Virus record (IMG/VR): IMGVR_UViG_3300020172_005239
Coordinates: 1-31,769 of that record
From: a virus
Length of the DNA stretch: 31,769 bases
Reading direction: 5' to 3' (one strand)
In this document: positions 12,746 to 26,302 of the stretch, piece after piece
Layout: the number at the start of each line of letters is the position of its first letter
Position numbering within the stretch: the stretch's first letter is position 1
Translations under genes and position numbers: made by a program
Notes under the pieces: model-generated
What the model was told of the DNA's origin: nothing
Databases searched by the model: none
The model's input: the letters and a program-made list of their open reading frames with translations, nothing else

Positions 12746-13627
12746 CTAGTAAACATCAAACATTTCCGATAAATCCAAGACACTACCTTCTTTTTCCAGG
12801 CACTTACTGTACTTAGTATCGCAGTGCTCAACTAAACCGCACGGGGCTATGTGTACCTTATTGCCCGCTTTAACCACAGGTATTACGCGGCGGTGCTCCC
12901 CTCCTGCAGACGGTTTTTCAAAAGCAAGTCCCATAGAACTGCGGTCAGCTAGCGGCCAGCAACGAAACTGAGTTAGCTCAAAACTTCTTACAGGATCAAA
13001 GCTTGTAGATATTATGTAACGCTCTGCCATTTCCTGATCAAGAATCATCATTCCCATATAGGGATTGCCAAGAGACACGAAACCAATAAACCAGTCGTCG
13101 CGAGGGGCGAGATAAGTAGCAACTTTATAAGGGCGGTCCCCCCAAACACTTTCAGTTAACCTGTTTAGTTTCCATACCCGATGGTTGTCAAAAGGAACCA
13201 TTTTTGATTTGTAAGACTCATATCTACAAAAACCAGGCTCTAGGTTTAACTTCTTGAGCTTATCTTTATATAAAAACCAATAGATAAAGTTTTCACTATT
13301 AAAGACCATATCATTCTCTGTATACACATAGAAGTCGTAGTATTTGTTGATTACAGCTTCTCGAAGCAACCCTTTATGAGCCCACGTAAGAGAAAAACCC
13401 TCCCACTCAGCAGACGCAACAACAATGCTCAAGTTGTTAAAACTTACGTTAGGTTCCAGCAGATCCACTAACTCGGATTTGTCACCCTCGTGCTCTGCGT
13501 CTATATAGATAAAAACATCTTTAACACCAGGTATCTCTTCGTATCCGTGGAGCGTTTTCAGTAGTGCATCGAACCGCGAAAGTGGATCGTGTGCTGTGAC
13601 AATAATGAGAAATTTATAGTCGTTCAT
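12746..13627 (-). CDS. GT-A-type glycosyltransferase
   Basis: This encodes 293 residues. Its ATG at 13625-13627 shares a base with the terminase TAA (TAATG), so the two are translationally coupled. The N-terminus FLIIVTAHDPLSRFDALLKT (residues 6-25) is a Rossmann-like beta-strand and loop as in GT-A enzymes. VFIYIDAEHEGD follows near 38-49. YTENDMVF at 102-109 is the expected acidic metal/nucleotide-sugar motif at the end of a strand. The C-terminal part has a conserved-looking WFIGFVSLGNPYMG block and several cysteines near the end. There is no transmembrane segment. The substrate is unknown. Direct coupling to the terminase means it is made with late packaging genes. I am fairly sure of the fold and unsure of the CAZy family. 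Confidence 0.72.
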   Translation of the reverse strand: MNDYKFLIIVTAHDPLSRFDALLKTLHGYEEIPGVKDVFIYIDAEHEGDKSELVDLLEPNVSFNNLSIVVASAEWEGFSLTWAHKGLLREAVINKYYDFYVYTENDMVFNSENFIYWFLYKDKLKKLNLEPGFCRYESYKSKMVPFDNHRVWKLNRLTESVWGDRPYKVATYLAPRDDWFIGFVSLGNPYMGMMILDQEMAERYIISTSFDPVRSFELTQFRCWPLADRSSMGLAFEKPSAGGEHRRVIPVVKAGNKVHIAPCGLVEHCDTKYSKCLEKEGSVLDLSEMFDVY

Positions 13628-15150
13628 TAGAACTCCATCTCGAAGTTACCGCGCCGCTGCAGATAACACACCAGGTGCGTGTAGGCATCTAGTAAGTCAT
13701 CATGAGAAGTAGCACCAATATTAATAAGCTGATCAAACAAGACATCAAATTTACGAAAACGATTAAAGATAACTTTCTTATTCTCCAGCAGACCTAGTGT
13801 GCCCCTAAAGCGTGAAACCTTATCCCCTCTAAAACCTTTAACCTCGTGGATATGGAGGTTGCCCAAACCCCACTCGTTCAACATTACTCGCCTGAGGTCT
13901 GCCGCGAGTGAAGCTTGATAAGCAACAGATTCAACAACCAAAGTACAAGTGGAGTATGTAGGGAAGTATTTGCCATCGTTATCTTCCTGCAGGATGCCCC
14001 ACTCAACCAGCATCTTACATAGTAGATCTATCTTTTCAAGGTTACCAATAGAACGCACCTGGTGAGCGTCAATGATGTAGTACTTATCTTTTAATCTGCC
14101 TCCTAAAACAAAAGCTGTGTAGTCAGACGTTTCGTTCTTACTGGCGGACAAATCGACGCCCACGGCCAAGCTGTCAAACTCAGTTACAACATCGCCTTTA
14201 ACTAGTAGATCTGGAGAAAGAACCAGATCCGATGTCATAACCGGTTGTTGCTGGTACTGGAACGCAAAAGCAACAGGGTCAAGCTCTTTCTGACCTAATA
14301 AGTAGTCAACGCTCCACTGCTCAGGCCAATAGCTAACGGGTTCGCTATCGTCGTCATAAGTAAGAGCTTCCTGCTGTACTTGTTTCCACCCTTTATCAGG
14401 AACAAACATCGTCTTATGGATATCTAAAGGGTGGAAACGAGTACCCAGACAGATAGCCCGACCACCTTCAAAAATAATCGGAGCAATAACGGAGCTCCAG
14501 TTGTTGTTCATCTCCTCTCTAATAGTAGGGTTTTTAATATCCGTACTAGACTTGATAGGGTCATCTACAATCACAAGGTGTGCACGCTTAGAGGTGATAG
14601 AGCCTCGAAGTCCTGCCGCCCTTAGGGTGAATTCTTCATCGCCCACACGGCTGATTCCGGCGTAATCAAAATCGATACTCCAGCCGATATCCGACTGCAT
14701 ACCCGACCGAAGCTGCACCTTCGGAAAAATCTTTTTGTAGGTAGACGAATCGATAATCTGTTTAATGATTCGGCTTTTGGGGATAGCTGTGGCGATGTTG
14801 TAAGAACAGTAAATAATTTGAAGCGGTAAGCCTGCTGTCGTATGCCTACCTATGATCCAAGCCGTAAACATATTAAGCACAGTACTTTTAGCACTACCTC
14901 GTGGAGCCAGAATATCAAGGTTTGGTCCCGCGATATCGATTAAATAACGATTACTATCTCCCGTTATCAGATGCTTGTGCCACTCCAGCATATGAGCTGC
15001 TGGGGCTTTATCCATAATTGTACAGAACGTATGAAAATCATCAGCAGCTCTCATAAAGATATTATCTATAGTAGAGCTCTCAGAATCAACTGCTTTAGCA
15101 GCACGCAATTTAAGTGCACGGCGATATGCAAATGTCTCTCTGCTTGGCAT
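13627..15150 (-). CDS. terL: Terminase large subunit
   Basis: This encodes 507 residues with ATG at 15148-15150. The ATPase domain has Walker A APRGSAKST at residues 82-90 and Walker B LVIVDD at 192-197. LGTRFHPLDI near 235-244 is the usual post-Walker block with the coupling motif. The RNase H-like nuclease begins AVGVDLSASKNETSDYTAFV near 329-348, where Asp333 is the first catalytic acid. VVESVAYQA supplies the next acidic position, and the last is in HDDLLDAYTHLV near 484-495. Length and domain order are normal. The protein pumps DNA through the portal ring and cuts concatemers. Its start region faces a plus-strand sugar cassette across a 48-bp gap. No small subunit is directly upstream; a candidate lies at 17542-18072. 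Confidence 0.95.
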   Translation of the reverse strand: MPSRETFAYRRALKLRAAKAVDSESSTIDNIFMRAADDFHTFCTIMDKAPAAHMLEWHKHLITGDSNRYLIDIAGPNLDILAPRGSAKSTVLNMFTAWIIGRHTTAGLPLQIIYCSYNIATAIPKSRIIKQIIDSSTYKKIFPKVQLRSGMQSDIGWSIDFDYAGISRVGDEEFTLRAAGLRGSITSKRAHLVIVDDPIKSSTDIKNPTIREEMNNNWSSVIAPIIFEGGRAICLGTRFHPLDIHKTMFVPDKGWKQVQQEALTYDDDSEPVSYWPEQWSVDYLLGQKELDPVAFAFQYQQQPVMTSDLVLSPDLLVKGDVVTEFDSLAVGVDLSASKNETSDYTAFVLGGRLKDKYYIIDAHQVRSIGNLEKIDLLCKMLVEWGILQEDNDGKYFPTYSTCTLVVESVAYQASLAADLRRVMLNEWGLGNLHIHEVKGFRGDKVSRFRGTLGLLENKKVIFNRFRKFDVLFDQLINIGATSHDDLLDAYTHLVCYLQRRGNFEMEF

Positions 15151-15168
15151 TTGTTTTAAAAAAGTGTC

Positions 15169-15198
15169 TGTATACTGTTAGCAAGATTCTACTGCCAA
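15169..15198. promoter_or_regulatory. Candidate divergent promoters between terminase and GT4 cassette
   Basis: The 48-bp gap holds a GTATAC palindrome at 15170-15175 that could give a -10 element in both directions. For the minus strand, TTGGCA (15193-15198) and TATACA (15169-15174) are 18 nt apart. For the plus strand, TATACT (15171-15176) has no good -35 at normal spacing. Overlapping -10 elements would make the two transcripts compete. This is a prediction by eye. Confidence 0.35.
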
Positions 15199-16371
15199 AT
15201 GGCAAAAATTCTTTGGTACGGCGACATTCTCTCTAACACCGGTTTTGCTAGAGTTACACACAGTATTTTAGAGCACCTAGGCCGCACACACGAAATAGTG
15301 GCTTACGGTATTAATTACACTGGCGATCCCCACGGGCTTCCGTTCAGGATTTACCCAGCAGGTACTCACAATCCCTCTGATCGTTTCGGGATCGGTCGAC
15401 TGCCTCAAGTAGTCGAGGCAGAAAAACCGGATTTTATTATCTGTTTAAACGACATCTGGGTCGTTAATCAGGTGTGGGAGCGAGTTCATCTTTTAAAAGA
15501 TTCGCTGAAGTTCAAGTTCATAGCTTACTTCCCAGTTGACTCAGCTTACTACGTGAGCTCTATGCTCGCCTATATCAAAGACTGGGATTTCGCTGTTACC
15601 TTCTCAGTCGAACAGGCTCATCGCCTAATGGCTCAAGGCGTGCAACCGAAGTTGTTAGGTGTGATTCCCCACGGCTTGGATCAAGGGAAGTTCTTCCCGA
15701 TAGACCAAAACGAAGCGCGTCGGATGCTTCGTCTCCCCGAAGATAAGTTCATCGTTCTCAATGCGAACCGAAATCAACCTCGCAAGCAGATCGATCTCAC
15801 GATTAAAGCTTTCGTTGAGTTTGCTGTCGATAAGCCAGACACTCTCCTCTATCTGCACATGAGCGAGAAAGATCTTGGATGGGACGTGCGGGCCATCTTC
15901 GATGCAGAAATGAGGCGAAAAAACTTAAAGTCAGATAATCGTATGATCATGACAACAAGCAATATCGACTACACGAATGCACCGCCTGATGAACTCTTAA
16001 ACAAGATCTATAACGCTTGCGACGTGGGCATCAACACCGCAAACGGTGAAGGCTGGGGTCTAGTTCCCTTTGAACACGCCTCCTGTAAAAAACCGTTAGT
16101 CCTGCCAAACCACACGTCATTTATCGATATCTGGAAAGGCAGCGCTCTGCTGGCGGACGTCGCAGCTTGGATCTACGACAAGGACCTGAGCGTTGAACGA
16201 GGCATCGTAGATATTCATGACGTAGCCGTAAAACTAACAAAACTGTACTCAGATAAAACTTTTTATAACCAAGTAGCTGAGGACTGCTACAAAGTCACCC
16301 AGAACCCCTCATACAGGTGGGATCGCATCGCTGAAGGATTCAACAAAGCTATGGAGGAACTCAACAAATGA
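15199..16371 (+). CDS. Glycosyltransferase family 4 (GT-B fold)
   Basis: This encodes 390 residues. The N-terminal Rossmann domain starts KILWYGDILSNTGFARVTHS (residues 3-22), with the glycine-containing acceptor-site loop typical of GT4. LLGVIPHGLD near 152-161 begins the C-terminal domain, and NANRNQPRKQIDL at 188-200 supplies the Arg/Lys pair that binds the nucleotide-sugar phosphates. GEGWGLVPFEHASCKKPLVL at 283-302 is the E-x7-E motif (Glu284, Glu292). All catalytic landmarks are present, so it should be an active retaining glycosyltransferase using a nucleotide sugar in the cytoplasm; the acceptor is unknown. It is the first gene of a two-gene plus-strand cassette and overlaps the next gene by 4 nt (ATGA). 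There is no signal peptide or anchor. No strong Shine-Dalgarno site is seen. Confidence 0.93.
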   Translation: MAKILWYGDILSNTGFARVTHSILEHLGRTHEIVAYGINYTGDPHGLPFRIYPAGTHNPSDRFGIGRLPQVVEAEKPDFIICLNDIWVVNQVWERVHLLKDSLKFKFIAYFPVDSAYYVSSMLAYIKDWDFAVTFSVEQAHRLMAQGVQPKLLGVIPHGLDQGKFFPIDQNEARRMLRLPEDKFIVLNANRNQPRKQIDLTIKAFVEFAVDKPDTLLYLHMSEKDLGWDVRAIFDAEMRRKNLKSDNRMIMTTSNIDYTNAPPDELLNKIYNACDVGINTANGEGWGLVPFEHASCKKPLVLPNHTSFIDIWKGSALLADVAAWIYDKDLSVERGIVDIHDVAVKLTKLYSDKTFYNQVAEDCYKVTQNPSYRWDRIAEGFNKAMEELNK

Positions 16372-17456
16372 GCACACAATTTCACCGCTATCGCACGTAT
16401 CACAACAATGTGATTCAGAGGGCTTTCGCTCCTACTAAATCAGGATTCCCTTCTGTATTCGATCAGGCTTACGAAATTGGGGGAACTTTCACAAAGATCG
16501 TTTCTGGCTTACCTGAGAATAGTTTCGCCAACTTCAGCCCTTGCGTTATCAACCATCGCGGCGCGACTTTGATTGCGTGGCGATCACAGCCCGAGCATTT
16601 TGTGTTCAGGCATGATATGAAATACTTCTACTACAACAACACTCCTACAGACATCTGGGTCGGACAATTGTTGGCGGACGACGCTATCGTCGCACCGAAA
16701 AAGCTGATCGACAAAAAACATCGATTGAGTTACGAAGATCCGAGAATTTTTATCTCTCCCGACGATAGTCTTCTCTGTCAGTTTGTAACAAGCACTTACG
16801 CGACAAAATGGGATATCACGAATCACAGAATGCTTAAAACACCTAAGATTTGCACTGGTGTCGTTAACGAGTTCGGTCAATTAGAAGATCGTTTTTATCC
16901 TCCGATCGGAGATAACTTCAAAGAAGGTAAGTCAGAGAAAAATTGGTGTTTCTTTTCTGATGAAAATAACCTGCGTCTTCTCTACTCAACGCAACCCATC
17001 GTTATCAAGACGCCAAACGAGGCGGATAAAGTAATCGACTCGACCTGTTTAAAACAGGTAACTAGTGAGCATCCTACGTTCAACTCCACAGCGCCTATTT
17101 TGGTCGGTGACGAGTGGCTTGTATTTTTCCATTGGAAGTTTATGGCCAGAGAAACTGACCGCCGTCCCTATCTTCTTTATGCACTAGGTGCGTATACCTT
17201 AGATAAAGAACTGACAAAAATCACACGGATGATGAAAGAACCTTTATTTGTAGGTTCTACTAACGATGACCTTGTGACGTGGACAGACTCAGTAGGCAAC
17301 GACGTATCGAATCAACCTGCCTGCATACTGCCCTTCGGTTGCTTTATCGACGAGAGCGATGATTTAGTTATGTCACTAGGTGTAAATGATTATTACATGG
17401 GTATATTTAGAACTCCTGTGCTTAACGTGTTAAGCTTATTGGAGCCCGTGGAATAA
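16368..17456 (+). CDS. GH130-like five-bladed beta-propeller protein
   Basis: This encodes 362 residues whose ATG overlaps the preceding stop (ATGA). The strand-rich sequence has blade-like repeats. YEDPRIF at 122-128 matches the 'EDPR' motif of GH130 phosphorylases and related propellers. SEKNWCFF at 189-196 matches the 'EKNW' motif that follows it, and NSTAPILVGDEWLVFFHWKF near 237-256 corresponds to the later substrate-side blade. GH130 enzymes cleave or phosphorolyse beta-mannosides; some relatives of this fold only bind sugar. Here it is paired with a GT4 enzyme, so it may trim, recycle or recognise the glycan made by that enzyme, or be a sugar-transfer enzyme with a propeller fold. Family assignment is by motif; activity is inference. 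Confidence 0.68.
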   Translation: MSTQFHRYRTYHNNVIQRAFAPTKSGFPSVFDQAYEIGGTFTKIVSGLPENSFANFSPCVINHRGATLIAWRSQPEHFVFRHDMKYFYYNNTPTDIWVGQLLADDAIVAPKKLIDKKHRLSYEDPRIFISPDDSLLCQFVTSTYATKWDITNHRMLKTPKICTGVVNEFGQLEDRFYPPIGDNFKEGKSEKNWCFFSDENNLRLLYSTQPIVIKTPNEADKVIDSTCLKQVTSEHPTFNSTAPILVGDEWLVFFHWKFMARETDRRPYLLYALGAYTLDKELTKITRMMKEPLFVGSTNDDLVTWTDSVGNDVSNQPACILPFGCFIDESDDLVMSLGVNDYYMGIFRTPVLNVLSLLEPVE

Positions 17457-17522
17457 GAGGTCTTCTAACACCTCTAATATTCTGTGAAGCCAGACGGGTC
17501 AGAGGGTAGGCTTTTGTCTACC
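17456..17522. other. Two short inverted repeats between convergent genes
   Basis: AGAGGT/ACCTCT with an 8-nt loop begins at the last base of the stop codon (17456-17475). GGTAGGC/GTCTACC with a TTTT loop, including one G-T pair, lies at 17505-17522. Neither is followed by a real U-tract. They may form a weak bidirectional transcription stop between the sugar cassette and the gene ending at 17542. Confidence 0.3.
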
Positions 17523-17541: not shown

Positions 17542-18072
17542 TTAAGACTTTTCTTCTTTCTCGATCGTACTCCACACGACGAGGGAAGCGTCTTCTAGCA
17601 GGGAAAACATAGTAGGGGCGTCTTCAAAGCTATTTAAAAGTTCACGCAAACAACGATCAGCACCGGCTAGTAACAAACCGCGTCGATCTAGACCATCAGT
17701 AAGCTGACGAACAGCTTGGATATGTGATCGAATCTCTTTTTGCAGCACTGCAATCTTTGTAGCCGCAGTGGCGTAATCCAACATCCCCGTAAGGGTCATC
17801 TGCCTTACGTTATGCAAATCGGTTTTTAAAGAATCGATCTCAATGAGTAAGACCTTGCGTAGATCTTCTTTGGGGTATTTCTCCTGGACCCACGCTGTTA
17901 GGTCGGCAATCGAACCTGTGTAGCTTGGTTTTAAAAATCGTGCATAAAGGTAAGCCTCGATGTCACTCGCGGCATTCTTCGCATAATGCTTAAAAGCATC
18001 TTGCTGAGACTTATCTAGTGAACTTAACCAAGTACCAACAGTTGTTGAGTCACCAATCGTTGACTTAATCAC
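17542..18072 (-). CDS. Helical protein, possible small terminase subunit
   Basis: This encodes 176 residues from GTG at 18070-18072, overlapping the previous TGA (GTGA). The N-terminal 60 residues could be a DNA-binding helical domain (TVGTWLSSLDKSQQDAFKHY, residues 11-30, then SDIEAYLYARFLKPSY). The middle is a long helix with heptad-like leucines (VLLIEIDSLKTDLHNVRQMT, then TKIAVLQKEIRSHIQAVRQL). The C-terminus is acidic (SLVVWSTIEKEEKS). This order of a DNA-binding head, oligomerisation helix and acidic tail is what small terminases show. The gene is the last minus-strand gene before the cassette that now separates it from the large subunit. The assignment is inference from architecture and position; a different helical virion protein is equally possible. 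Confidence 0.6.
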   Translation of the reverse strand: MIKSTIGDSTTVGTWLSSLDKSQQDAFKHYAKNAASDIEAYLYARFLKPSYTGSIADLTAWVQEKYPKEDLRKVLLIEIDSLKTDLHNVRQMTLTGMLDYATAATKIAVLQKEIRSHIQAVRQLTDGLDRRGLLLAGADRCLRELLNSFEDAPTMFSLLEDASLVVWSTIEKEEKS

Positions 18073-18824
18073 GCAAACATCCGGGTCCCGGCAAGCGCTT
18101 GGTTAGCTCCAAATTTCTTAAGAGCTAGTTGACCTTTAGTTGCCGCTTGGGTGCGAGCAAGATCTCCAAGCGTACGCACTCTATCTAACTGAGCCGCACT
18201 TTCAAACTGTTGAGTACCGAGAGCCAGACGACCTTCGTTCGAAGCTCGAGTTTCAAAGACATCGTTCAGAGTAGTGGCCTGATCTTTGGCTACATCTCCA
18301 CGGAGTTGCTCTTGGTAAGCCCGTACTCCAATATTGGTATTACCCAATTGGTTAGCGAGTGCGTTTTCACCGGCCAACGCCGCCGAACCGGCTTGAGCTA
18401 AAAGTTGAGGTGCGCCGAGCTCAGTAGAAAGCTTGGCTTGTCCTAAATTATATAAAGTATCTAAACCTTTGCCTGATGCGTAGCCTGCCACAGAAGCTTG
18501 AAGCGTGGCGTCTTTCTGAGCTCGCTGAAGCGCCTCAGTCAACATGCTGAGTTGAGCCGAAGCTTTAGTTGTTGCCTCCTGACCGATAGCACCAGCTAAA
18601 GCACCCTGAAGAAGACTTACTCCTTGATAAGCAGCTGTTAAGGGGTTGTTCTGTGCAGCAATCTGAGCAGCAAACTGCTGATATGGGCTGGTTTGTGAGC
18701 TACTACTACCACCACCGCCAAACAAACTACCTATCCCACCGACAACAGCTCCTATCCCAGTCCCCCAAGGGCCAAAAGCCGAACCCGCAGCAGCTCCTTG
18801 CGCAGCACCACCAAGAAAAGACAT
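18069..18824 (-). CDS. Gly/Ala-rich internal virion (ejection-type) protein
   Basis: This encodes 251 residues with ATG at 18822-18824. Residues 1-41 are Gly/Ala-rich and hydrophobic (GTGIGAVVGGIGSLFGGGG), like the membrane-active N-terminus of T7 gp14 and P22 gp7 ejection proteins. The remainder is a long helical, Ala/Gln/Leu-rich region (SAQLSMLTEALQRAQKDATL, then QQFESAAQLDRVRTLGDLAR) with little Cys or Trp. Such proteins are carried in the capsid and ejected to form a trans-envelope channel. It is the third of three consecutive genes with the same build and overlaps the following gene by 4 nt. No direct family match is claimed; the assignment is by composition and order. Confidence 0.72.
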   Translation of the reverse strand: MSFLGGAAQGAAAGSAFGPWGTGIGAVVGGIGSLFGGGGSSSSQTSPYQQFAAQIAAQNNPLTAAYQGVSLLQGALAGAIGQEATTKASAQLSMLTEALQRAQKDATLQASVAGYASGKGLDTLYNLGQAKLSTELGAPQLLAQAGSAALAGENALANQLGNTNIGVRAYQEQLRGDVAKDQATTLNDVFETRASNEGRLALGTQQFESAAQLDRVRTLGDLARTQAATKGQLALKKFGANQALAGTRMFA

Positions 18825-18826
18825 GA

Positions 18827-19474
18827 CTAGCTAATAGTGGAGGAAGGGGCAGCAAAACCGGCACGACCTTGCCCAGCCAAAGATGCTCCGGCTTGCAGAA
18901 CATTAGGATTGGGAACGCCGGCAGAGTAAGCCAGGTTCATCATGCCAAGCCCAATTTGAGCGTTGGCGTTAATCTGAGCTTGAGTGATACCTTGCCATGC
19001 AGCGATTGTGTCGCTCTCAATCTTGCGGCGAGAGAGCTCACGGGTTTGCTCCATCCCCGCTTGGCGAGCTAGCTCAGACTGACGCTCGTAGTTGGCAAGA
19101 TCAATCGCAGCACGCTCGGCATACAGCTCAGGATCAAGCAGACGATCGTAAAGCTTGGCCCGATCTGCTTGCTCAGCCTGAGACATCTCAGTGCTTTGAG
19201 CAGATAAACGCTCTAATAAAGCGATCAATGCAGCGTTCTGATCAACAGTCGCTGCTTGTGCTGGCGTACTAGGAGTACCAGGTGCGGGAGTATTTACAGT
19301 ACCGACAGGAGGAGTAGCCGTGGGGTCCGCTCCAGGCTGACCGAAACCAGCAACAGATTGGCTAATCTTGGCTAAGTGAGGCAGTGCTCCAAGTCCCACA
19401 GCGCCAGCAATCGGAATACCGATATATTTACCGGCTAAACGGAGGCCACTACCAGCAAGAGTTCCTAAGCTCAT
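18827..19474 (-). CDS. Ala/Gln-rich helical virion-type protein
   Basis: This encodes 215 residues. Its ATG overlaps the previous TGA (ATGA), and its TAG lies 2 nt before the next ATG. The N-terminus is hydrophobic and Gly-rich (GKYIGIPIAGAVGLGALPHL, residues 15-34). A Pro/Thr linker (TPPVGTVNTPAPGTPSTPAQ) follows, then a charged helix (AERAAIDLANYERQSELARQ, then TRELSRRKIESDTIAAWQGI). Its middle resembles that of the gene upstream in layout: a D-x-(E/G)...AER start, an Arg/Glu helix, then an Ala/Gln/Asn-rich end. The two may be diverged duplicates or proteins under the same structural constraint. It is a probable internal or ejection protein. It has no enzyme motifs. Confidence 0.7.
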   Translation of the reverse strand: MSLGTLAGSGLRLAGKYIGIPIAGAVGLGALPHLAKISQSVAGFGQPGADPTATPPVGTVNTPAPGTPSTPAQAATVDQNAALIALLERLSAQSTEMSQAEQADRAKLYDRLLDPELYAERAAIDLANYERQSELARQAGMEQTRELSRRKIESDTIAAWQGITQAQINANAQIGLGMMNLAYSAGVPNPNVLQAGASLAGQGRAGFAAPSSTIS

Positions 19475-19965
19475 CGTCCCGTTGCCATCGCTGCGACCGC
19501 TGGGTCAATACTAGGACGATTTAAGAACGATGCGACACCTTGCTGACCTAATCCGCTAGTTGCTTGTGCTTGAGTTCCGGCTAATTGTGCCATCGCAGGA
19601 ACAACAGCTTGTTGAACTTCTAACTGTTTACGAGCAAAATCACGTTGGCCGGCCTGAGCCGCAGATTCCCTGAGAGCTTCCTCACGTTCAGCGAGAAACT
19701 GGCCAGCATCTAAAGGCTCGAGTCCGAGCATACTGCGGCGGAAATTCTCACTCGCAAAAGCAAGCTCGAGACGCTGAGCCTCAGGCAACGTAATCATGTA
19801 CTTGCTGCCTTGTCCGCCACTCTCCGTCATGGGCTCAAGCCCTGAACGGGTAGCACCGAATAACCCCGCAGCGCCCTGACCGATTAATTCGGCAATGATC
19901 GAATTAAGCAACTGGCCGCCGCCGATAAATTCAGCACCCTTACCAGCAACCGTTTGAATGGTCAT
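19471..19965 (-). CDS. Ala/Gln-rich helical virion-type protein
   Basis: The start is ATG at 19963-19965, giving 164 residues; a TTG six bases upstream would add two residues and overlap the previous stop. A hydrophobic Gly/Ala N-terminus (LLNSIIAELIGQGAAGLFGA, near residues 19-38) is followed by a central patch (GSKYMITLPEAQRLELAFAS) and a charged helix (AEREEALRESAAQAGQRDFA). The tail is Gln/Ala/Gly-rich. Its build matches the next two genes downstream, and all are linked by overlaps or gaps of a few bases. It is likely part of an ejection-protein set. The family is not recognised. Confidence 0.68.
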   Translation of the reverse strand: MTIQTVAGKGAEFIGGGQLLNSIIAELIGQGAAGLFGATRSGLEPMTESGGQGSKYMITLPEAQRLELAFASENFRRSMLGLEPLDAGQFLAEREEALRESAAQAGQRDFARKQLEVQQAVVPAMAQLAGTQAQATSGLGQQGVASFLNRPSIDPAVAAMATGR

Positions 19966-19967
19966 AA

Positions 19968-20210
19968 TCAAGAAAGACCAGGATTGTCGTAACCAGTGCC
20001 CGACTTAGGCTTAGTCTGCTTTAATTTTAAACTATCTGCTAGCTGTTGGTTATCTAAACCACGCTGCATCTGTTGTGCAGAAGGAAACGCAGCTGTTTGA
20101 GGAAAATTACTTTCCATATACATCTGCATAAACGTATCCGGATTTAACTCCGGTGAGAGCTTACGCACATCGCGCTCTCGCAGTTGTTGTTGGCGAGCGT
20201 TAAGTGTCAT
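19968..20210 (-). CDS. 80-residue hypothetical protein in the coupled operon
   Basis: The ATG at 20208-20210 shares a base with the preceding TAA (TAATG), and its stop is 2 nt before the next ATG. The sequence is polar and Gln/Leu/Asn-rich: MTLNARQQQLRERDVRKLSP, then DTFMQMYMESNFPQTAAFPS, then a Lys-rich segment near the end (KLKQTKPKSGTG). It has no metal site or membrane segment. I do not recognise it. Its position inside a chain of overlapping virion-type genes is the only functional clue. Confidence 0.65.
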   Translation of the reverse strand: MTLNARQQQLRERDVRKLSPELNPDTFMQMYMESNFPQTAAFPSAQQMQRGLDNQQLADSLKLKQTKPKSGTGYDNPGLS

Positions 20211-20707
20211 TAGCCGAGAGCTTGATAGGCGCGAGAAGGCTCGATACCGTTAGAGGACGGTGCGTTCAGAACGCTATAGTTAGACCCCATGTTCGGAGTG
20301 TCATACTCCAAAGGCCGCTGAGAGGACAGTCGATCAGACTCTTCATCCTCTTGATCAGCCAAACGCTCCAGAAGAGCCATGATCAGACTGAACTCATCCG
20401 GGTCCAGCATGTTAACCAGCTCCATCAGATAAGCATCCTCGTGAGGACGCTCAGGCTCAGTCCGCAACCGAGAAGCGAGCTGAGCCTTCTGCATAGGCAT
20501 CGTGTTATCCGGATACCCGTTCAGCGAACGAGTAGCTCCGGTATAAAACCCGTCACTCTCTTGACCAGGCATCGGGGGCAGTCCTTGCCCAAAACGACGA
20601 ATAACCTGAGCCGTGGCGGGAGTAGCCGCAGCCATTTCTGCAGGAGTCTGGGGCACAGGAAGCCCAAGAATCCGAGCAGCTAATTCGTAATCGGCTTTAG
20701 AAAACAC
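20210..20707 (-). CDS. Hypothetical protein with acidic helical centre
   Basis: This encodes 165 residues from GTG at 20705-20707, which lies inside the 3' end of the HTH gene (11-nt overlap, different frame). The N-terminus is helical (SKADYELAARILGLPVPQTP). A Pro/Gly linker follows (FGQGLPPMPGQESDGFYTG). Residues 90-125 are an acidic helix (EDAYLMELVNMLDPDEFSLI, then MALLERLADQEDEESDR). The C-terminus looks disordered (NMGSNYSVLNAPSSNG). The family is unknown. Its TAA overlaps the next ATG. It may be a structural or chaperone-like protein for the downstream genes. Confidence 0.65.
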   Translation of the reverse strand: MFSKADYELAARILGLPVPQTPAEMAAATPATAQVIRRFGQGLPPMPGQESDGFYTGATRSLNGYPDNTMPMQKAQLASRLRTEPERPHEDAYLMELVNMLDPDEFSLIMALLERLADQEDEESDRLSSQRPLEYDTPNMGSNYSVLNAPSSNGIEPSRAYQALG

Positions 20708-20969
20708 CGGACACCACCACGGCTGATTCTTCTATATTACCGCGAATATTTAAGATATCGCCAGGTAAACACTCTAGAGTCATACACAACTTCTCAAGTA
20801 CGTCAGGAGATGGTATGTAGTCTGGATCGGTATAGATCTTCCTTGTCGTAGTCGGCGACAAGTTCGCCTGTTTACTTAACGCAAATGAAGACAGCCTCTT
20901 GGTGTCGAGCAGCGTTTTAAGTGTATTAACTAGCTTACCTGAAGCTGTGTGCGAGGAATAAAAAGGCAC
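20697..20969 (-). CDS. Cro/C1-type helix-turn-helix regulator
   Basis: This encodes 90 residues from GTG at 20967-20969, with an in-frame TGA two codons upstream. Residues 10-75 match the HTH_26/XRE pattern: a first helix (GKLVNTLKTLLDTKRLS), the turn and recognition part (SSFALSKQANLSPTTTRKIY), then PDVLEKLCMTLECLPGDIL, which is typical for this family. It would bind DNA as a small repressor or activator. It heads the row of coupled virion-type genes, so it may control that operon or act earlier as a lysis-lysogeny or superinfection regulator. A Cro/C1-like gene inside a late virion operon is uncommon. The DNA target is unknown. Confidence 0.82.
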   Translation of the reverse strand: MPFYSSHTASGKLVNTLKTLLDTKRLSSFALSKQANLSPTTTRKIYTDPDYIPSPDVLEKLCMTLECLPGDILNIRGNIEESAVVVSGVF

Positions 20970-21015
20970 GACTCATACACCCGATTCGCACATAATACTT
21001 CGAGATTTAATAAAG

Positions 21016-21789
21016 TTAAAAGCCCAGATGCTTACGACGGCAAAACCCGAGATCGAACGTTGTAAAGCTGTTGGGGAACTCTGGGTTATTAAACGGATGC
21101 TTATGTGTAGGCTCGTCGATATGAGCTTGCCAGCCCTCACCCCACTTCATGTGCAAATACCTTTTATTGAGTTCATGAGCAATGTGGATCGGCTGAGCTA
21201 GAGATGGATCCGAGCGCCAGGTCTGAGAACCATCGGAGTAATCATTTTTACAAGTCCCATGAAAATAACCATGCTTCAGGGACAGTACACGCTTGATATC
21301 ATCATGTATAAAACGCATACCGTAATCCATGTCTTCTGTATAAGCGGGATATAAGTTCTCGTCAAACAAACCGTACCGCTGCACCATCCAGTCTTTAAGA
21401 AGAAAGATATCCCATCCACCGCCACAGCCGTGAACAATACCGACGTCTTTTTTCTGCGCCTCCTCGTTCATTTCCTCAAGAAAACCAGCCTCAAACATCA
21501 CATCGTGATTTGATATAACCCAATATGGCGCTTGCATAAAGCACTTAATAATTAAGTTCCATGCACCAGAGCAGCCCACGTTTGCGGGCATGTGCGTTAC
21601 GTGTACTTTTTTTACGAACGGATTAGACAACTTACGAACACTTTCTACCGCGTCCGTAATCTGACCCCGACCGTTGTTGTTAAATACGACAAAGTTATCG
21701 ACCGGATAGTCGATGCTCATAAAAAGCCGGTGGAGCCAGTAAGGGTTATTAACGATTGCTGTGCCGAGCACAGGAATAGAAGAACTCAT
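21016..21789 (-). CDS. GT2-like glycosyltransferase
   Basis: This encodes 257 residues with ATG at 21787-21789. The N-terminus VLGTAIVNNPYWLHRLFMSI (residues 7-26) and NFVVFNNNG (32-40) follow the GT-A/GT2 strand-helix pattern. NVGCSGAWNLIIK at 70-82 is the usual 'N-x-G-x-x-x-A-x-N' nucleotide-sugar helix, and SNHDVMF at 93-99 takes the place of the DxD metal site. DYGMRF, near the C-terminal third, resembles the region of the catalytic base. There is no membrane helix, so it is a cytoplasmic enzyme with unknown donor and acceptor. It lies between a zinc-ribbon gene and the HTH gene, away from the other glycosyltransferases. The family is good by motif; exact specificity cannot be read. Confidence 0.78.
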   Translation of the reverse strand: MSSSIPVLGTAIVNNPYWLHRLFMSIDYPVDNFVVFNNNGRGQITDAVESVRKLSNPFVKKVHVTHMPANVGCSGAWNLIIKCFMQAPYWVISNHDVMFEAGFLEEMNEEAQKKDVGIVHGCGGGWDIFLLKDWMVQRYGLFDENLYPAYTEDMDYGMRFIHDDIKRVLSLKHGYFHGTCKNDYSDGSQTWRSDPSLAQPIHIAHELNKRYLHMKWGEGWQAHIDEPTHKHPFNNPEFPNSFTTFDLGFCRRKHLGF

Positions 21790-21801
21790 TAGACAGCTGA
21801 T

Positions 21802-22251
21802 CTATGTCAGCATGTTATCAGAAAATATCGATTGGAACAGGTTGCACCCACGAGCATCCTCAGTGTGAGCTTCTGGTATATCAAACGAGCAGCCGTTAAG
21901 CGTTAGGTGCACACAATCACAGCAAGGGATACCCTCAGGTACTTCGGCAACCGACTCAAGCTGTACAGGTTGTTGTACAGGTTGATGCACACTGTTAAAG
22001 ATCTGCTCCAGCTGATTAAGCTTGTTGCGAAGAGTGCGCAGCTCTTCATAAGCCTCAGAAGTTATCTCATATGTTGTGTATTTATGATCACACCCAAAAC
22101 AGCTGTAACGCCTCCTAGTTCCTTCAAATATCTTTCTGCTTTCTTTTACCTTGGCTTTAAGCTCGCCGCATAAAGGACACTCTTTTGTCTTGTGGAATTC
22201 GTAGAGCCCCTGGAGTTGATTGTTGTCATGCTTTTTCTTTTGAGCTGCCAT
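21802..22251 (-). CDS. NrdR-type zinc-ribbon protein with second Cys cluster
   Basis: The start is the ATG at 22249-22251, giving 149 residues; a longer frame would run into the tRNA-Leu gene. Residues 25-62 are very like the N-terminal zinc ribbon of the NrdR repressor: CPLCG, KVKESRKIFEGTRRRYSC, FGC and HKYTTYE. NrdR's ATP-cone domain is absent. A helix with Gln/Leu heptads follows (RTLRNKLNQLEQIFNS, then QPVQQPVQ). The last 45 residues hold a second cluster (PCCDCVHLTLNGC, then ARGCNLF). It may bind DNA as a dimer. A role in nrd gene control is only suggested by the ribbon. It is 14 nt past the tRNA. Confidence 0.75.
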   Translation of the reverse strand: MAAQKKKHDNNQLQGLYEFHKTKECPLCGELKAKVKESRKIFEGTRRRYSCFGCDHKYTTYEITSEAYEELRTLRNKLNQLEQIFNSVHQPVQQPVQLESVAEVPEGIPCCDCVHLTLNGCSFDIPEAHTEDARGCNLFQSIFSDNMLT

Positions 22252-22265
22252 TAGATGTTTGTTAA

Positions 22266-22347
22266 TGCTGCAGGTGGGACTCGAACCCACATGAGTGAAA
22301 CTCAGCGCATTTTAAGTGCGCAGCGTATACCATTCCGCCACTGCAGC
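22266..22347 (-). tRNA. tRNA-Leu (anticodon TAA)
   Basis: On the minus strand the acceptor stems are GCTGCAG and CTGCAGC with discriminator A. The anticodon stem is GCGCA/TGCGC with loop CTTAAAA, so the anticodon is TAA. The long variable arm (TGAGTTTCACTCAT) is typical of Leu, and the T arm (GTGGG/CCCAC) is canonical. CCA is not encoded. Length is 82 nt. It reads UUA and UUG codons and is embedded between protein genes of the same strand. Confidence 0.95.
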
Positions 22348-22367
22348 GGCATGAGGACTATAGCAAC

Positions 22368-22607
22368 TTACTGACTGTCCGAGGGAGGCTCGTTAGAGTT
22401 TTTCCAGGTTTGATCGCCAGGCAGCGGCTCTGTACCATACTCAAACGTATCGTAGTCCTCATCATTACGAGGATCTTCTACAAACACGTAGTGCGTGGTC
22501 TCCTCCTCGATAAAAGACTGCAAGTTTTTAATCGCACCTTCGAGAAGCTCTTGCTCTTCCGGCGTGAGCTCAAGGGAATCTGACACAGACCGCAGGCGAC
22601 TGCTCAC
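22368..22607 (-). CDS. 79-residue acidic hypothetical protein
   Basis: GTG at 22605-22607 lies 3 nt after the stop of the membrane-protein gene. The N-terminal half is a charged helix (SDSLELTPEEQELLEGAIKN, near residues 9-28). The C-terminal half is acidic and Tyr/Pro-rich (DPRNDEDYDTFEYGTEPLPG). There is no Cys or membrane segment. It is followed, 20 nt later, by tRNA-Leu. The family is not recognised. Small acidic proteins in phages sometimes mimic DNA or inhibit host enzymes, but nothing here shows that. Confidence 0.65.
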   Translation of the reverse strand: MSSRLRSVSDSLELTPEEQELLEGAIKNLQSFIEEETTHYVFVEDPRNDEDYDTFEYGTEPLPGDQTWKNSNEPPSDSQ

Positions 22608-22610
22608 AGG

Positions 22611-22895
22611 CTAACGGTGCTCATAAAAATTCAGGCGAGCATTAACGGCGGCTTTACAAGTCCGAACGTCACGCCGTCCGTAGACCTCGACCTGACGGAC
22701 AAGACACTCCCCAACAGCTTGGTTGAACTGCTTCATGCGGGTTGCGTACGAGCTCTGATTGGTTACGAATTTTGGAAACAGCGTGGCGAAAGCGATCAAT
22801 GTGCAGACCGAAACAGTCAGACCAAAAGCATGAGAGAAGATCGCGTACGCAACGGCGTCGCTGGAGTTGGCTCTGATTTGGATGTCGTTTGTCAT
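22611..22895 (-). CDS. Small single-span membrane protein
   Basis: The start is ATG at 22893-22895 (94 residues), because AGGTGA lies about 6 nt upstream; a GTG three codons earlier is possible. Residues 17-40 (IFSHAFGLTVSVCTLIAFAT) form a hydrophobic helix. A longer basic C-terminal part with two Cys follows (QVEVYGRRDVRTCKAAVNAR). It could be a small envelope-inserted phage protein. It is driven by the strongest sigma-70-type promoter in the window (22919-22947) and heads the minus-strand operon that contains tRNA-Leu. The function is unknown. Confidence 0.68.
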   Translation of the reverse strand: MTNDIQIRANSSDAVAYAIFSHAFGLTVSVCTLIAFATLFPKFVTNQSSYATRMKQFNQAVGECLVRQVEVYGRRDVRTCKAAVNARLNFYEHR

Positions 22896-22918
22896 GTGAG
22901 TCACCTAGTGACACTGCA

Positions 22919-22947
22919 AGCATACAGCCCAAAGGGCAGCGTGTCAA
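22919..22947 (-). promoter_or_regulatory. Sigma-70-type promoter
   Basis: On the minus strand, TTGACA (22942-22947), a 17-nt spacer and TATGCT (22919-22924) give a perfect -35 with a four-of-six -10. The start of transcription would be near 22912. TGACAC/GTGTCA (22909-22914 and 22941-22946) and GCCC/GGGC (22927-22930 and 22934-22937) inverted repeats lie over the core and could be operator half-sites. Confidence 0.6.
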
Positions 22948-22986
22948 CAAAATGCTGCTACCATAACGACATTTAGAATCGGGCAG

Positions 22987-23700
22987 ATGACCACGGCCAG
23001 CAAGCAGAGCTTTAAAGATCTCATGGCTCAGCTCGGCAATGAAGCCGAAGAAGTTGTGCCGACTGTCCAGATCCAAGGCAAGAAGCAGCTGAACGAGCGG
23101 TATAGCCTCAATCAAACTTGGTATGACGCTCTGCTGAACACCGATATGGTGCTCTGCACTCGCGACGAAGCGGCTGAACTGCGTTTAGACCCTTCTGCAA
23201 AGCGTCAAATCGTCGAAATCGGTGTTTACGAAGGCGCTTCTAGCTGTTTCTGGTCTGATTTTTATCTTTCGCATCCCGAATCCCGTCTAATTTCAATCGA
23301 TCCGTTCACCGGAAGCTCTGAGCATCACGAAAAGCCCGAAAACTACCCCGAATTAGCGAAAATCGAGCTCACAGCTCGCGGAAATATTGCTAAATCCGAT
23401 AACGCTGCCAAGATTGAAGTAATTAAAGGTTGTAGCTGGGACGTTTTCCCTGAACTCAACCGTCGTAGCGGCGGCGAACCCTGGATCGATGTCCTGTATA
23501 TTGATGGTGCACACGATCCTGCTTCTGTCGCACGGGATACCACGCTGTTTGTCCCAATGGTTAAGTCTGGTGGAATCGTTATTTTTGACGATTACGGCCA
23601 CCCTGACGTTCAACGCGGTGTTGATGGCGCCCTCACTGCCTTCGCTTCGATGAAACTTGCAATCTTCACTGGCTGGCAACTCGTAACCAAAGTCGCATGA
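22987..23700 (+). CDS. Class I SAM-dependent methyltransferase (Methyltransf_24-like)
   Basis: This encodes 237 residues with ATG at 22987. IVEIGVYEGASS at residues 75-86 is the glycine-rich SAM-binding motif I. LISIDPFTG at 101-109 is motif II with the acidic residue for the ribose. LYIDGAHDPASVARDTTL near 170-187 and GGIVIFDDYGHPDVQRGVDG near 196-215 are the post-I blocks shared by the Methyltransf_24 family, often found with sugar or cephalosporin hydroxylases. The N-terminal 70 residues are an extra helical cap. Close neighbours of this family often modify sugars or glycan tails, which fits the many glycosyltransferases here, but the substrate is inference. It overlaps the next small gene by 4 nt (ATGA) and is followed by a terminator. 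Confidence 0.88.
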   Translation: MTTASKQSFKDLMAQLGNEAEEVVPTVQIQGKKQLNERYSLNQTWYDALLNTDMVLCTRDEAAELRLDPSAKRQIVEIGVYEGASSCFWSDFYLSHPESRLISIDPFTGSSEHHEKPENYPELAKIELTARGNIAKSDNAAKIEVIKGCSWDVFPELNRRSGGEPWIDVLYIDGAHDPASVARDTTLFVPMVKSGGIVIFDDYGHPDVQRGVDGALTAFASMKLAIFTGWQLVTKVA

Positions 23701-23891
23701 ATACAGAAGATCGCTGCAGAACCTGTCGCTTCTTTCAACTAACACACGATGTTGAAGTTAACGCGACAGGACAATGTCGTCGGTTCTCTCCGATTCCCGT
23801 CTATATTCAATCTGCACTACTACCACGGGCGCAGTGGCCTCAGGTCAACGCCGATAAAGACTGGTGCGGGCAGTTCAAACCAATCAAATAA
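23697..23891 (+). CDS. Small Cys-rich protein coupled to the methyltransferase
   Basis: This encodes 64 residues; the ATG overlaps the methyltransferase TGA (ATGA). The pattern CRTCRFF (residues 7-13), GQCRRFSPIP (25-34), WPQV (47-50) and DWCGQF (55-60) is a recurring small phage and bacterial protein with four Cys positions that probably bind one zinc or an iron-sulfur centre. Its biochemical role is unknown to me. The tight coupling suggests the two proteins are made in fixed ratio. It is the last gene of this plus-strand pair. Confidence 0.8.
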   Translation: MNTEDRCRTCRFFQLTHDVEVNATGQCRRFSPIPVYIQSALLPRAQWPQVNADKDWCGQFKPIK

Positions 23892-23965
23892 AATCTCAAA
23901 TAAGACACATGAGACTGGCGCTTAGGGGTTTTCGACGCGCCTCCCACACCTTTCCCCACTAGTAG

Positions 23966-23988
23966 CTGCGCACTCACGCAGTTTTTTC
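23966..23988 (+). terminator. Rho-independent terminator after the methyltransferase pair
   Basis: CTGCG (23966-23970), a 6-nt loop, CGCAG (23977-23981), then six T residues. The short GC-rich stem with U-tract on the plus strand lies 75 nt past the stop. A further imperfect GGCGC/GCGCC pair is upstream at 23917-23941. Confidence 0.75.
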
Positions 23989-23997
23989 TTATACCCT

Positions 23998-24210
23998 CTA
24001 CCCTTCGTCTTTTACGGCCTGCTTACGGGCCTCTTTTTTTGCGTCCCAGTCCGCTGGCTTTGTCCTTCGCGTCAACTGGATTTTCCTCTCATCTACTAGG
24101 TGCCAGCTACTAACAAAACTCTGCTCACCCCACGCTGCCTTAACCAGGATCCCATAATCATCAACCCCGATCACTTCGAAATCATCTTCATCTACTACTA
24201 CATAAGTCAT
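23998..24210 (-). CDS. 70-residue hypothetical protein
   Basis: The start is chosen at ATG 24208-24210, giving 70 residues; a TTG eight codons earlier would also be open. The first half is a small beta-like domain (VVVDEDDFEVIGVDDYGILV, near residues 4-23, then KAAWGEQSFVSSWHLVDERK). The tail is Lys/Arg-rich (TRRTKPADWDAKKEARKQAV). No family is recognised. It is convergent with the plus-strand methyltransferase pair and divergent from the M23-like gene. Confidence 0.6.
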   Translation of the reverse strand: MTYVVVDEDDFEVIGVDDYGILVKAAWGEQSFVSSWHLVDERKIQLTRRTKPADWDAKKEARKQAVKDEG

Positions 24211-24281
24211 GTACTTCACAGTGCCCCCAAACAAACATAAATGCTAGAGTGATATTACACCCTTAAAACCAAGGGAAAGCA

Positions 24282-25118
24282 GTGACTAACGGCGTTCAAT
24301 ACTTACCGACATTTCGCTCCAGCTATACCGGCGAAAGCAGAAACATCGGCGGCTCATCACCGTTTCACGTCGACTTTAGAGTTCTCAGTAACCTCCCCGA
24401 CGAAGAAAAAATTCGAGCTGTGGATTCACTGGCTCGCGAATACGCAAAGAATGGTCGTGTAATTGAATTTTCAAATCAAGCCGTTTCAGGTCGCATATGG
24501 AACCCAGACGCTAGCTTCGAAGAAAAAAAGGCTTTATTCAAAACGGCATCTAGTGCCCACGCAACTCGGCCCGGCTGGGATCCTCTAGATTTTTACGTTC
24601 CATTCAAAGGCAAATCCCGTTTCGACACAGGTGCAGTCGAAGGCGCCTCGATTTACATCCCAGGTGTACCTGGCGGCAAAATCCGCCGTGGTGCAGGTGG
24701 TGGTTACGGCTACTTCAGCGAAGCCATGGACCCTAGTGGCCGCGTGGTATTCCGTGTTGGCCACGGTGACATCAACCGCCCTGAGCAAGAAACTGAAATT
24801 GCTGTCGCTCAACAAGCAGCACCGCAACCAGGCACAACAAAACCCGAAACCAAATCAGCTGAAGAACTCCTGCTCGAAAAGATCGATGAGCTCATGAAGC
24901 CCAAGATCGAAGTCAGCAGCAGCTACGCAGGCCCGAGCCCAGAAACATTCCGCAAAGCACGCGAAGAGATCGATCAAACCATGATGCAGCTTCTGCTAGA
25001 AAAAGCTGCTCAAAAGCCTGAAGAAAAACAAGCCCCTCAGTACGTACAAAACCAGGGAGGCGCTGCTGCAGCCGCTTTAGCCCAAAAAGGCTTCGCAACT
25101 CCAAAATCCTTAATCTAA
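24282..25118 (+). CDS. M23-peptidase-like (LytM fold) phage protein, possibly degenerate
   Basis: This encodes 278 residues from GTG at 24282, with AAGGGA 8 nt upstream. Residues 28-75 (PFHVDFRVLSNLPDEEK, then GRVIEFSNQAVSGRIW) form an N-terminal domain found with phage LytM-like proteins. Residues 115-165 follow the LytM beta-roll: DTGAVEGASIYIPGVPGGKI, RRGAGGGYGYFSEAMDPSG, RVVFRVGHGDI. The usual first metal-binding His is not visible and the end reads GHGD instead of HxH, so peptidase activity is doubtful. Residues 170-278 are a Pro/Gln linker and charged helix (KSAEELLLEKIDELMKPKIE). It may degrade, bind or only recognise peptidoglycan at entry or lysis. It is alone on the plus strand and overlaps the convergent gene by 9 nt. 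Confidence 0.65.
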   Translation: MTNGVQYLPTFRSSYTGESRNIGGSSPFHVDFRVLSNLPDEEKIRAVDSLAREYAKNGRVIEFSNQAVSGRIWNPDASFEEKKALFKTASSAHATRPGWDPLDFYVPFKGKSRFDTGAVEGASIYIPGVPGGKIRRGAGGGYGYFSEAMDPSGRVVFRVGHGDINRPEQETEIAVAQQAAPQPGTTKPETKSAEELLLEKIDELMKPKIEVSSSYAGPSPETFRKAREEIDQTMMQLLLEKAAQKPEEKQAPQYVQNQGGAAAAALAQKGFATPKSLI

Positions 25119-25340
25119 GGATTCACCACGGCTGAGTTTCCGAATACCCGTAATGAGGTACGCATAGTCACGTGCCTCAGTTACAGGCTTCGACTCCCCG
25201 CAAACATCGCAGTCGCCCTCCCAAATCGAGCTGCACCCGACTGAATAAACGCCATATTTGCAGCCGCAATCAGAACAGACGACATAGGCATCCTCAAGCT
25301 TACGTAGGAGTTCCTTCGTTGCTGAACTGAGTCGGGGCAT
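25110..25340 (-). CDS. Small zinc-ribbon protein
   Basis: This encodes 76 residues with ATG at 25338-25340; GAGG lies 3-4 nt upstream. CSDCGCKYG (residues 22-30), a Cys at 36 and GDCDVCGESK (42-51) give a CxxC...CxxC zinc ribbon, followed by a helix (ARDYAYLITGIRKLSRG). This type of short zinc protein is common in cyanophage and other phage genomes, with unknown role. Its start lies within the end of the upstream gene (41-nt overlap), and its end overlaps the convergent M23-like gene by 9 nt. Confidence 0.75.
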   Translation of the reverse strand: MPRLSSATKELLRKLEDAYVVCSDCGCKYGVYSVGCSSIWEGDCDVCGESKPVTEARDYAYLITGIRKLSRGESLD

Positions 25341-25539
25341 AACCCTCGCCAGGAAAAAGAGAATTCATGACGGACTCTACCTGGTTCACTCGAGCACGAC
25401 GATCCGCCAGCTCCTGACATAAAGCTTTCTTTAGATGGGGTATCAGTTTGCTTGTCATCTCCTCGTCCATATACTCACACACAGTTTCCTCTAGCCTCTT
25501 ATACACACCTTCTTCATAGGTGCACACTTCAAAAGGCAT
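25300..25539 (-). CDS. 79-residue helical hypothetical protein
   Basis: The start is ATG at 25537-25539. A TTG nine codons upstream is also open but would run further into the neighbouring gene. The sequence is mostly helical and acidic (MPFEVCTYEEGVYKRLEETV, then MDEEMTSKLIPHLKKALCQE), with a flexible end (GEGYAPTQFSNEGTPT). There are three Cys but no pairs. It overlaps the upstream membrane gene by 11 nt and the downstream zinc-ribbon gene by 41 nt, so the three are probably one translational unit. The family is unknown. Confidence 0.62.
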   Translation of the reverse strand: MPFEVCTYEEGVYKRLEETVCEYMDEEMTSKLIPHLKKALCQELADRRARVNQVESVMNSLFPGEGYAPTQFSNEGTPT

Positions 25540-25711
25540 CGTTCCAATGGCGGATGACACCCGCAACGATAAAGCAGTTCGTCACGAAGTAGGTAACGAA
25601 TATGAAAGTCCTAACCCAAGCAACATGGTCTGCGACCTTTTGACTCTCAGCACTTTTAGGACCTAAGGCGTTAGCCCAGATCTTAAAAATCTTTTGACGA
25701 CGTCGATTCAT
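25529..25711 (-). CDS. Small single-span membrane protein, 60 residues
   Basis: ATG at 25709-25711. A basic N-terminus (MNRRRQKIFKIWANALGPKS) precedes a short linker and one hydrophobic helix at about residues 35-56 (FIFVTYFVTNCFIVAGVI), ending in a short polar tail. The positive-inside rule puts the N-terminus in the cytoplasm. It could be a spanin, holin-like or host-envelope factor, but nothing in the sequence decides. It lies 12 nt after the second methyltransferase. Confidence 0.62.
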   Translation of the reverse strand: MNRRRQKIFKIWANALGPKSAESQKVADHVAWVRTFIFVTYFVTNCFIVAGVIRHWNDAF

Positions 25712-25723
25712 CTAATACAGTCT

Positions 25724-26302
25724 TTACTGGAAATCACTAAGGTTCCTGCGTTTATACACATTGCCGTAGCCACGGCCAACACAACCCGCCTCGTTCAGAT
25801 CAGCAACAATCCCTTCATTACCAATCCACCCATCTAATAGATCCTTTGTCAAAGCAACCGGATGCCCTTCGTGGGGCGGGATATCAATCCACTCAAACAA
25901 CCGAAGAACAGGAGCTGCAGCCAACGCATTCTTGATTATTCGCTCAGGGTCTTCCGTGTGCTGCAAACAGTTATAAATCCAGACCTCATCCCAACCACTC
26001 TCATCAACATCCTCTCCGCGCCCAACTTTGACACGTATATTTTTTGTGGCGTACCGAGCAACAGTCCATTGCGGATAACTGATTGGGTCAACAACAAGAC
26101 CTTCTAGCAGGCTGACGCACTTCAAAAGCATCGAAGTGGGACCACCTCCGATATCTAAAATCCGCTTACCTGCTGTTTCAAAATGATACCCACGCGGGAT
26201 TAACTCGAGGAAACGCGCGTAGACGTAGTGTTTTTGATCCTCGCTGAACGTATTACAGCAATCACCCCAAAACTGACGCTCAAAAACTAGATCGTCCTGC
26301 AC
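25724..26302 (-). CDS. Class I SAM-dependent methyltransferase
   Basis: This encodes 192 residues from GTG at 26300-26302, with AAGG about 5 nt upstream. KRILDIGGGPTSMLLKC at residues 46-62 is motif I. GLVVDPISYPQW near 69-80 is motif II. VGRGEDVDESGWDEVWIYNC near 93-112, followed by LQHTEDPERIIKNA, is the active-site side, with the typical 'N-C-L-Q-H' block of small-molecule methyltransferases. The C-terminus covers the pocket (LFEWIDIPPHEGHPV). It is not close to the first methyltransferase in motif sequence, so the two are probably of independent origin. The substrate is unknown; sugars, lipids or small molecules fit better than DNA because no DNA target-recognition part is present. Confidence 0.85.
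   Translation of the reverse strand: MQDDLVFERQFWGDCCNTFSEDQKHYVYARFLELIPRGYHFETAGKRILDIGGGPTSMLLKCVSLLEGLVVDPISYPQWTVARYATKNIRVKVGRGEDVDESGWDEVWIYNCLQHTEDPERIIKNALAAAPVLRLFEWIDIPPHEGHPVALTKDLLDGWIGNEGIVADLNEAGCVGRGYGNVYKRRNLSDFQ

Follow-up and report, generated by a model that had tools for sequence, protein, structure and literature searches.

The stretch of DNA considered here, which we call the window, is the whole of virus record IMGVR_UViG_3300020172_005239 (31,769 bases), and our subject is a run of seven genes on its minus strand at 17542-20969. In 5' to 3' order we name these HTH90, p165, p80, p166, p215, p251 and p176. The head gene, HTH90 (20697-20969), encodes a 90-amino-acid DNA-binding protein of the Cro/C1 helix-turn-helix (HTH) type, and the next, p165 (20210-20707), a conserved protein whose GTG start lies within the HTH gene. 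These are followed by p80 (19968-20210), a small conserved polar protein found both in the list of open reading frames (ORFs) and in our survey of related loci; p166 (19471-19965), which is Ala/Gly/Gln-rich and the fastest-evolving member; and p215 (18827-19474; 215 amino acids), which is Ala/Gln-rich with a variable N-terminus and a conserved, helical C-terminal part. The last two are p251 (18069-18824), with a glycine-zipper N-terminus, predicted long Ala/Gln-rich helices and a candidate role as an internal virion (ejection) protein, and p176 (17542-18072), predicted to be all-helical, slowly evolving, and a candidate small terminase subunit (TerS). The terms glycine zipper, pac and TerS are used here with their usual features. 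HTH90 and p165 overlap by 11 nucleotides, p165 and p80 by 1, and both p166/p215 and p251/p176 by 4, while p215 and p251 are separated by 2. At the p80/p166 junction the listed TTG start of p166 (at 19971, for 166 amino acids) gives an overlap of 4 nucleotides; close relatives use an ATG that leaves a 2-nucleotide gap, and the start in the window is probably likewise the ATG at 19965, for a protein of 164 amino acids. A sequence-only reading of the window had described seven genes with overlaps of 1-11 nucleotides or gaps of 2, and the ORFs and junctions are as it said.

The run is located directly before a terL-portal-capsid block in the late, structural half of the window. The large terminase subunit encoded by terL (13627-15150, minus) has its closest match in Synechococcus phage S-EIV1, at 53% identity, and other phage records follow at about 25%; the capsid (70%) and portal (43%) proteins and further genes also match S-EIV1, and on these homologies we assign the window to an S-EIV1-like cyanophage, of which it is a fragment. 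The lineage of S-EIV1 is said, in the title of the paper describing it, to be distinct and widespread. In the deposited S-EIV1 record, TerL alone among the terminase, portal and capsid genes carries a name. One account places S-EIV1 among the podoviruses (PMC9382816).

Our survey found 186 viral loci with any member of the run, 128 of them with all seven; these counts include repeats of the same contigs, and the 128 complete loci reduce to 65 clusters made distinct by DNA sequence. In every one of the 65 clusters the order of the seven genes is the same and all lie on one strand. The members absent from incomplete loci are mostly the fast-diverging p166, p215 and p251, or would fall beyond the ends of the locus. 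Ratios of nonsynonymous to synonymous substitution rates (dN/dS), where computable against the closest relatives (loci L002, L005 and L028), are 0.01-0.13 for all seven genes, and 0.03-0.11 for p165. Tight packing of genes is by itself ordinary for a phage. Because of the invariant order on one strand and the low dN/dS, we conclude that the run is a real conserved late module under purifying selection and not a chance arrangement; that its genes stay together, ordered and overlapping, is a direct observation, and the earlier description of a coupled gene set holds in this sense. The p251/p176 overlap is 4 nucleotides in all 65 clusters, and the start codons of the six genes other than p165 vary. 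Upstream of HTH90 (window 20970-25700) the genes differ among relatives, with at least three distinct gene ends directly upstream by our own reading of the sequences; the HTH gene therefore marks a border of the conserved module. A search of titles and abstracts of papers on S-EIV1 brought up no description of the module, and peptide-pattern scans of genome contigs with p176 and HTH90, which reach close relatives only, found no host or prophage relatives.

That the run is headed by a protein of the Cro/C1 type, as the sequence-only reading had proposed, is well supported. HTH90 matches Pfam HTH_26 over residues 17-74 (E 7e-11; score 42.6 bits, cut-off 22) and CylR2 (PDB 2xiu/1utx) weakly (E 0.0025), and residues S38-R43 are invariant across 20 aligned members. 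Wherever HTH90 was found, p165 comes next, overlapping it and starting with GTG (153 of 153 loci; the GTG also in 65 of 65 distinct clusters), so that HTH90 is a genuine, fixed member of the module. In 13 of 14 long records it is present in a single copy; in the fourteenth, a contig of 66 kb, the p176 locus starts 870 bases from the end. HTH90 thus shares with Cro/C1-type regulators its HTH_26 match and its weak likeness to CylR2, but where they stand beside an early switch, it heads a late structural module and contains the start of the following gene.

The offset between HTH90 and p165 is -8, -11, -17 or -23 nucleotides in all 65 clusters, with -71 also occurring among the 153 loci, and p165 is always in the +1 frame. 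The invariant GTG and the constant frame might suggest that the two are translated as one protein through +1 frameshifting, the GTG being a mere valine codon. The junctions that we inspected, however, contain no slippery motif; the third base of the serine codon preceding the GTG varies; codon pairing would be expected to break if the ribosome shifted by +1 at TCN or GGT; and the distance from the GTG to the HTH stop ranges from 5 to 68 nucleotides. Lacking a slippery motif and a fixed distance to the stop, a frameshift fusion is scarcely credible, and we reject it as the mechanism. Since the serine codon varies at its third base, the constraint appears to act at the protein level, on the C-terminus of the HTH protein.

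A candidate DNA site for such a regulator lies outside the run. Between terL and a glycosyltransferase gene in divergent orientation is a spacer of 48 nucleotides, and this contains a conserved element of about 30 nucleotides (15163-15192, minus), which is new here: it occurs in one copy per locus, 10-15 nucleotides before terL. Among loci with an exact core and a TerL match it is found at this distance in 169 of 170, and no locus has two; 34 more loci have the core with no TerL match, possibly by chance or from other viruses. A matrix derived from 31 loci gives a high score (22 or more) to 64 of the 76 distinct sequences upstream of terL. The 12 low-scoring ones include a copy shorter by one base (L135) and S-EIV1, the remainder having another sequence at the site, mostly with a TAATATAGC core, which we treat as a second class. 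The element could be a late promoter, an operator or a packaging (pac) site.

The class of element goes with the class of HTH90. In the 69 loci where both parts are readable, all 56 with Ala or Gly at HTH90 residue 30, which lies in helix 1 of the predicted HTH, have the first class (TATAcAGaCA-type), and none of the 13 with Lys or Arg has it, 11 of these showing the TAATATAGC-type second class. On a tree of p165 and p176, however, HTH class and element class each change exactly once, on the same branch, and the observations are therefore not independent and amount to no statistical proof; the link is suggestive of co-evolution only. A scan for sigma-70 promoters did no better than on shuffled sequences. 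Directly 5' of the HTH gene no operator is conserved (at most 0.7 bit per column, ungapped), which, like the single change on the tree, counts against a regulatory role for HTH90. One reading, which we consider rather unlikely, makes HTH90 a DNA-binding protein dedicated to the late phase, with the terL element as its target, where it would act as a two-way late switch or at a pac site.

The remaining named candidate, p176, has a clear counterpart in S-EIV1 (AHV82217; hhalign E 2e-63, 41% identity), encoded 5' of terL with two small ORFs between. A TerS gene is typically adjacent to terL and encodes a helical protein of about 140-180 amino acids that binds DNA through its N-terminus and forms rings through its core. 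Because of its position, size and helicity, our leading guess is that p176 is the small terminase subunit. An AlphaFold2 model has eight helices, including a long hairpin at residues 71-125, with a predicted local distance difference test (pLDDT) score of 73. Foldseek searches of the PDB and BFVD gave no significant match, and VIA-align 2 mainly aligned the hairpin (residues 69-127) to unrelated coiled coils, with no TerS listed. We also considered the phycodnavirus minor capsid protein P4, which Pfam matches weakly in 17 of 21 relatives (best E 7e-4) and not in the window protein, and rejected it as a chance helical similarity.

The three genes between p80 and p176 had been described as encoding proteins with Gly-rich hydrophobic N-termini and helical bodies, two of them perhaps duplicates. 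The composition is as described: the combined fraction of Ala, Gly and Gln (A+G+Q) is 0.44 for p251 and 0.39 and 0.36 for the other two, ranking first, second and joint third among the 41 ORFs of the window. Helical bodies are likewise predicted, but the N-terminal hydrophobicity is modest, the best 19-residue Kyte-Doolittle mean reaching 1.6 in 3 of 24 p166, 1 of 29 p215 and 11 of 31 p251 orthologues. Duplication we can reject. Family profiles of p166 (at 19471) and p215 (at 18827) match with a probability of 0.08%, or in a second comparison 0.93% over 3 columns, the window proteins give a BLASTP E of 43, and the other two pairs among the three reach at most 0.93%. The shared "AER" look of these proteins is, by these comparisons, compositional. 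Median identities are 41% for p166 and 50% for p215, the fastest in the module, against 84% for p176, 91% for TerL and 98% for the capsid protein.

For the functions of the proteins, which we infer, our preferred explanation, to which we give a probability of roughly 0.4, is an S-EIV1-like late module in which p251, probably with p215 and p166, is ejected, p176 is a packaging partner and HTH90 is a late regulator. The p251 set would be minor internal virion proteins that exit the head with the DNA, the glycine-zipper segment crossing the cell envelope; p176 would be the packaging partner of TerL; and HTH90 would be made in step with p165 through overlapping translation and regulate late genes, its likeliest site being the conserved element upstream of terL. 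Judged from sequence and analogy, p251 is a plausible ejection protein, p215 and p166 less plausible ones. The N-terminal zipper of p251, PWGxxIGxxxGxxGSLF, matches the C-terminal end of P22 gp7 over 17 columns at 59% identity, and none of 150 shuffles scores as high. At 251 amino acids p251 is similar in size to P22 gp7 (229) and T7 gp14 (196), and in A+G+Q to both (0.41 and 0.34, respectively). Weak matches of the zipper segment (E from 0.004 to about 10) include tape-measure and tail lysin families and, in the same place at the N-terminus, a family of internal virion proteins. The fast divergence of p166 and p215 fits a review of ejection proteins, according to which this class is more variable than the rest of the virion proteins (PMC8954989). 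Two near-complete relatives have no ORF longer than 935 amino acids, and thus no classical long tape measure.

Several results weigh against this explanation. The zipper stands at opposite ends of p251 and gp7, which show no other similarity, and the weak matches of the segment extend to endolysin and to many unknown families; found in such varied phage families, it marks membrane-active phage proteins in general. In 56 profile-to-sequence comparisons with T7 gp14-16 and P22 gp7/16/20 there was no full-length relation, the best giving 36% probability over the 17 zipper columns and the other 55 at most 2.2%. Neither p215, p166 nor p251 has a PDB match below E 0.5, and no match to a known ejection protein or small terminase was obtained in sequence or, for p176, in fold. 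The AlphaFold2 model of p251 is poor (pLDDT 54), with a disordered Gly-rich start followed by long helices, and tblastn with the p251 N-terminus gave no matches, perhaps owing to low-complexity masking. Six of the seven module genes have no detected counterpart in S-EIV1. Finally, published ejection sets contain gp15-like proteins of 431-982 and gp16-like proteins of 609-1318 amino acids (PMC8954989), whereas the candidates here have 164, 215 and 251, none above 300, with no partner of gp15 or gp16 size in the run.

The same results bear more heavily on the view, close to that of the sequence-only reading, that a full T7/P22-type ejectosome, with gp14-, gp15- and gp16-like members, two of them duplicated, lies wholly within the run. 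Three consecutive Ala/Gly/Gln-rich genes and the gp14/gp7 size of p251 speak for it, but there is no duplication, no protein of gp15 or gp16 size and no likeness to the T7 and P22 proteins beyond the one zipper match, and we consider it very improbable; size and lack of paralogy have largely refuted it already. What survives of the proposed ejection set is the zipper likeness of p251, the rapid divergence of p166 and p215 and the lack of a tape-measure-sized ORF in two near-complete relatives, and what fails is full-length homology and the presence of the larger proteins. In one relative (G001) a 586-amino-acid Ala/Gly/Gln-rich ORF (A+G+Q 0.34) lies on the capsid strand at 15741-17501 of locus L327 (72741-74501 of G001); from its sequence it is possibly a larger internal virion protein.

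A rival possibility is that the module supplies ordinary parts that are not ejected, for head-tail joining or tail assembly or as minor capsid components; the Ala/Gln-rich coiled helices would then act as scaffolds or plugs, and HTH90 would be an unrelated small regulator fixed at the head. The late location beside terL, portal and capsid genes, the low-complexity helical make-up and the strongest PHROG match of p251, to a tail-associated lysin family (E 7e-6, in 2 of 24 members), all speak for it. The conserved glycine-zipper N-terminus of p251 speaks against it, as does the lack of matches to adaptor or tail families; we consider it possible, if somewhat doubtful.

Comparison with S-EIV1 shows how much of the arrangement is peculiar to the window and its relatives. 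S-EIV1 has homologous TerL, capsid, portal and p176 proteins, with p176 5' of terL, and several Ala/Gly-rich ORFs at the corresponding place, but HTH90, p165, p80, p166, p215 and p251 are undetectable in it, and it has neither a terL-upstream element of this type nor the divergent glycosyltransferase pair between p176 and terL. For the capsid and p176 proteins it also gave the only matches in the phage collection searched. The survey thus delimits a conserved seven-gene module in a poorly annotated lineage with a single sequenced isolate in that collection, and singles out proteins whose possible roles in DNA delivery and packaging can be tested, together with a putative regulator and a candidate DNA site for it.

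Some features outside the module deserve mention. The portal ORF and the next ORF, in a scaffold-like position (window 6818-7744 and 7245-9470, minus), overlap by about 500 nucleotides in the +1 frame. In 32 of 32 distinct loci, S-EIV1 included, the overlap is 485-551 nucleotides, with an ATG start and 3-12 stops in the third frame, which suggests a long conserved dual-coding stretch; in S-EIV1 the downstream coding sequence is annotated as shorter. The ORF at 21802-22290 carries a zinc ribbon resembling that of NrdR (Pfam PF22811, E 1.6e-9) with no further NrdR domain. The late region also has dispersed genes that resemble glycosyltransferases and methyltransferases, at 9651-10466, 12746-13627, 15199-17456, 21016-21789, 22987-23700 and 25724-26302. 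These are our own reading of the sequences except in two cases: 21016-21789 matches a PHROG galactosyl transferase family (E 4e-22) and Pfam GT2, and 15199-16371 shares 39% identity with an S-EIV1 gene that carries the annotation glycosyl transferase group I.

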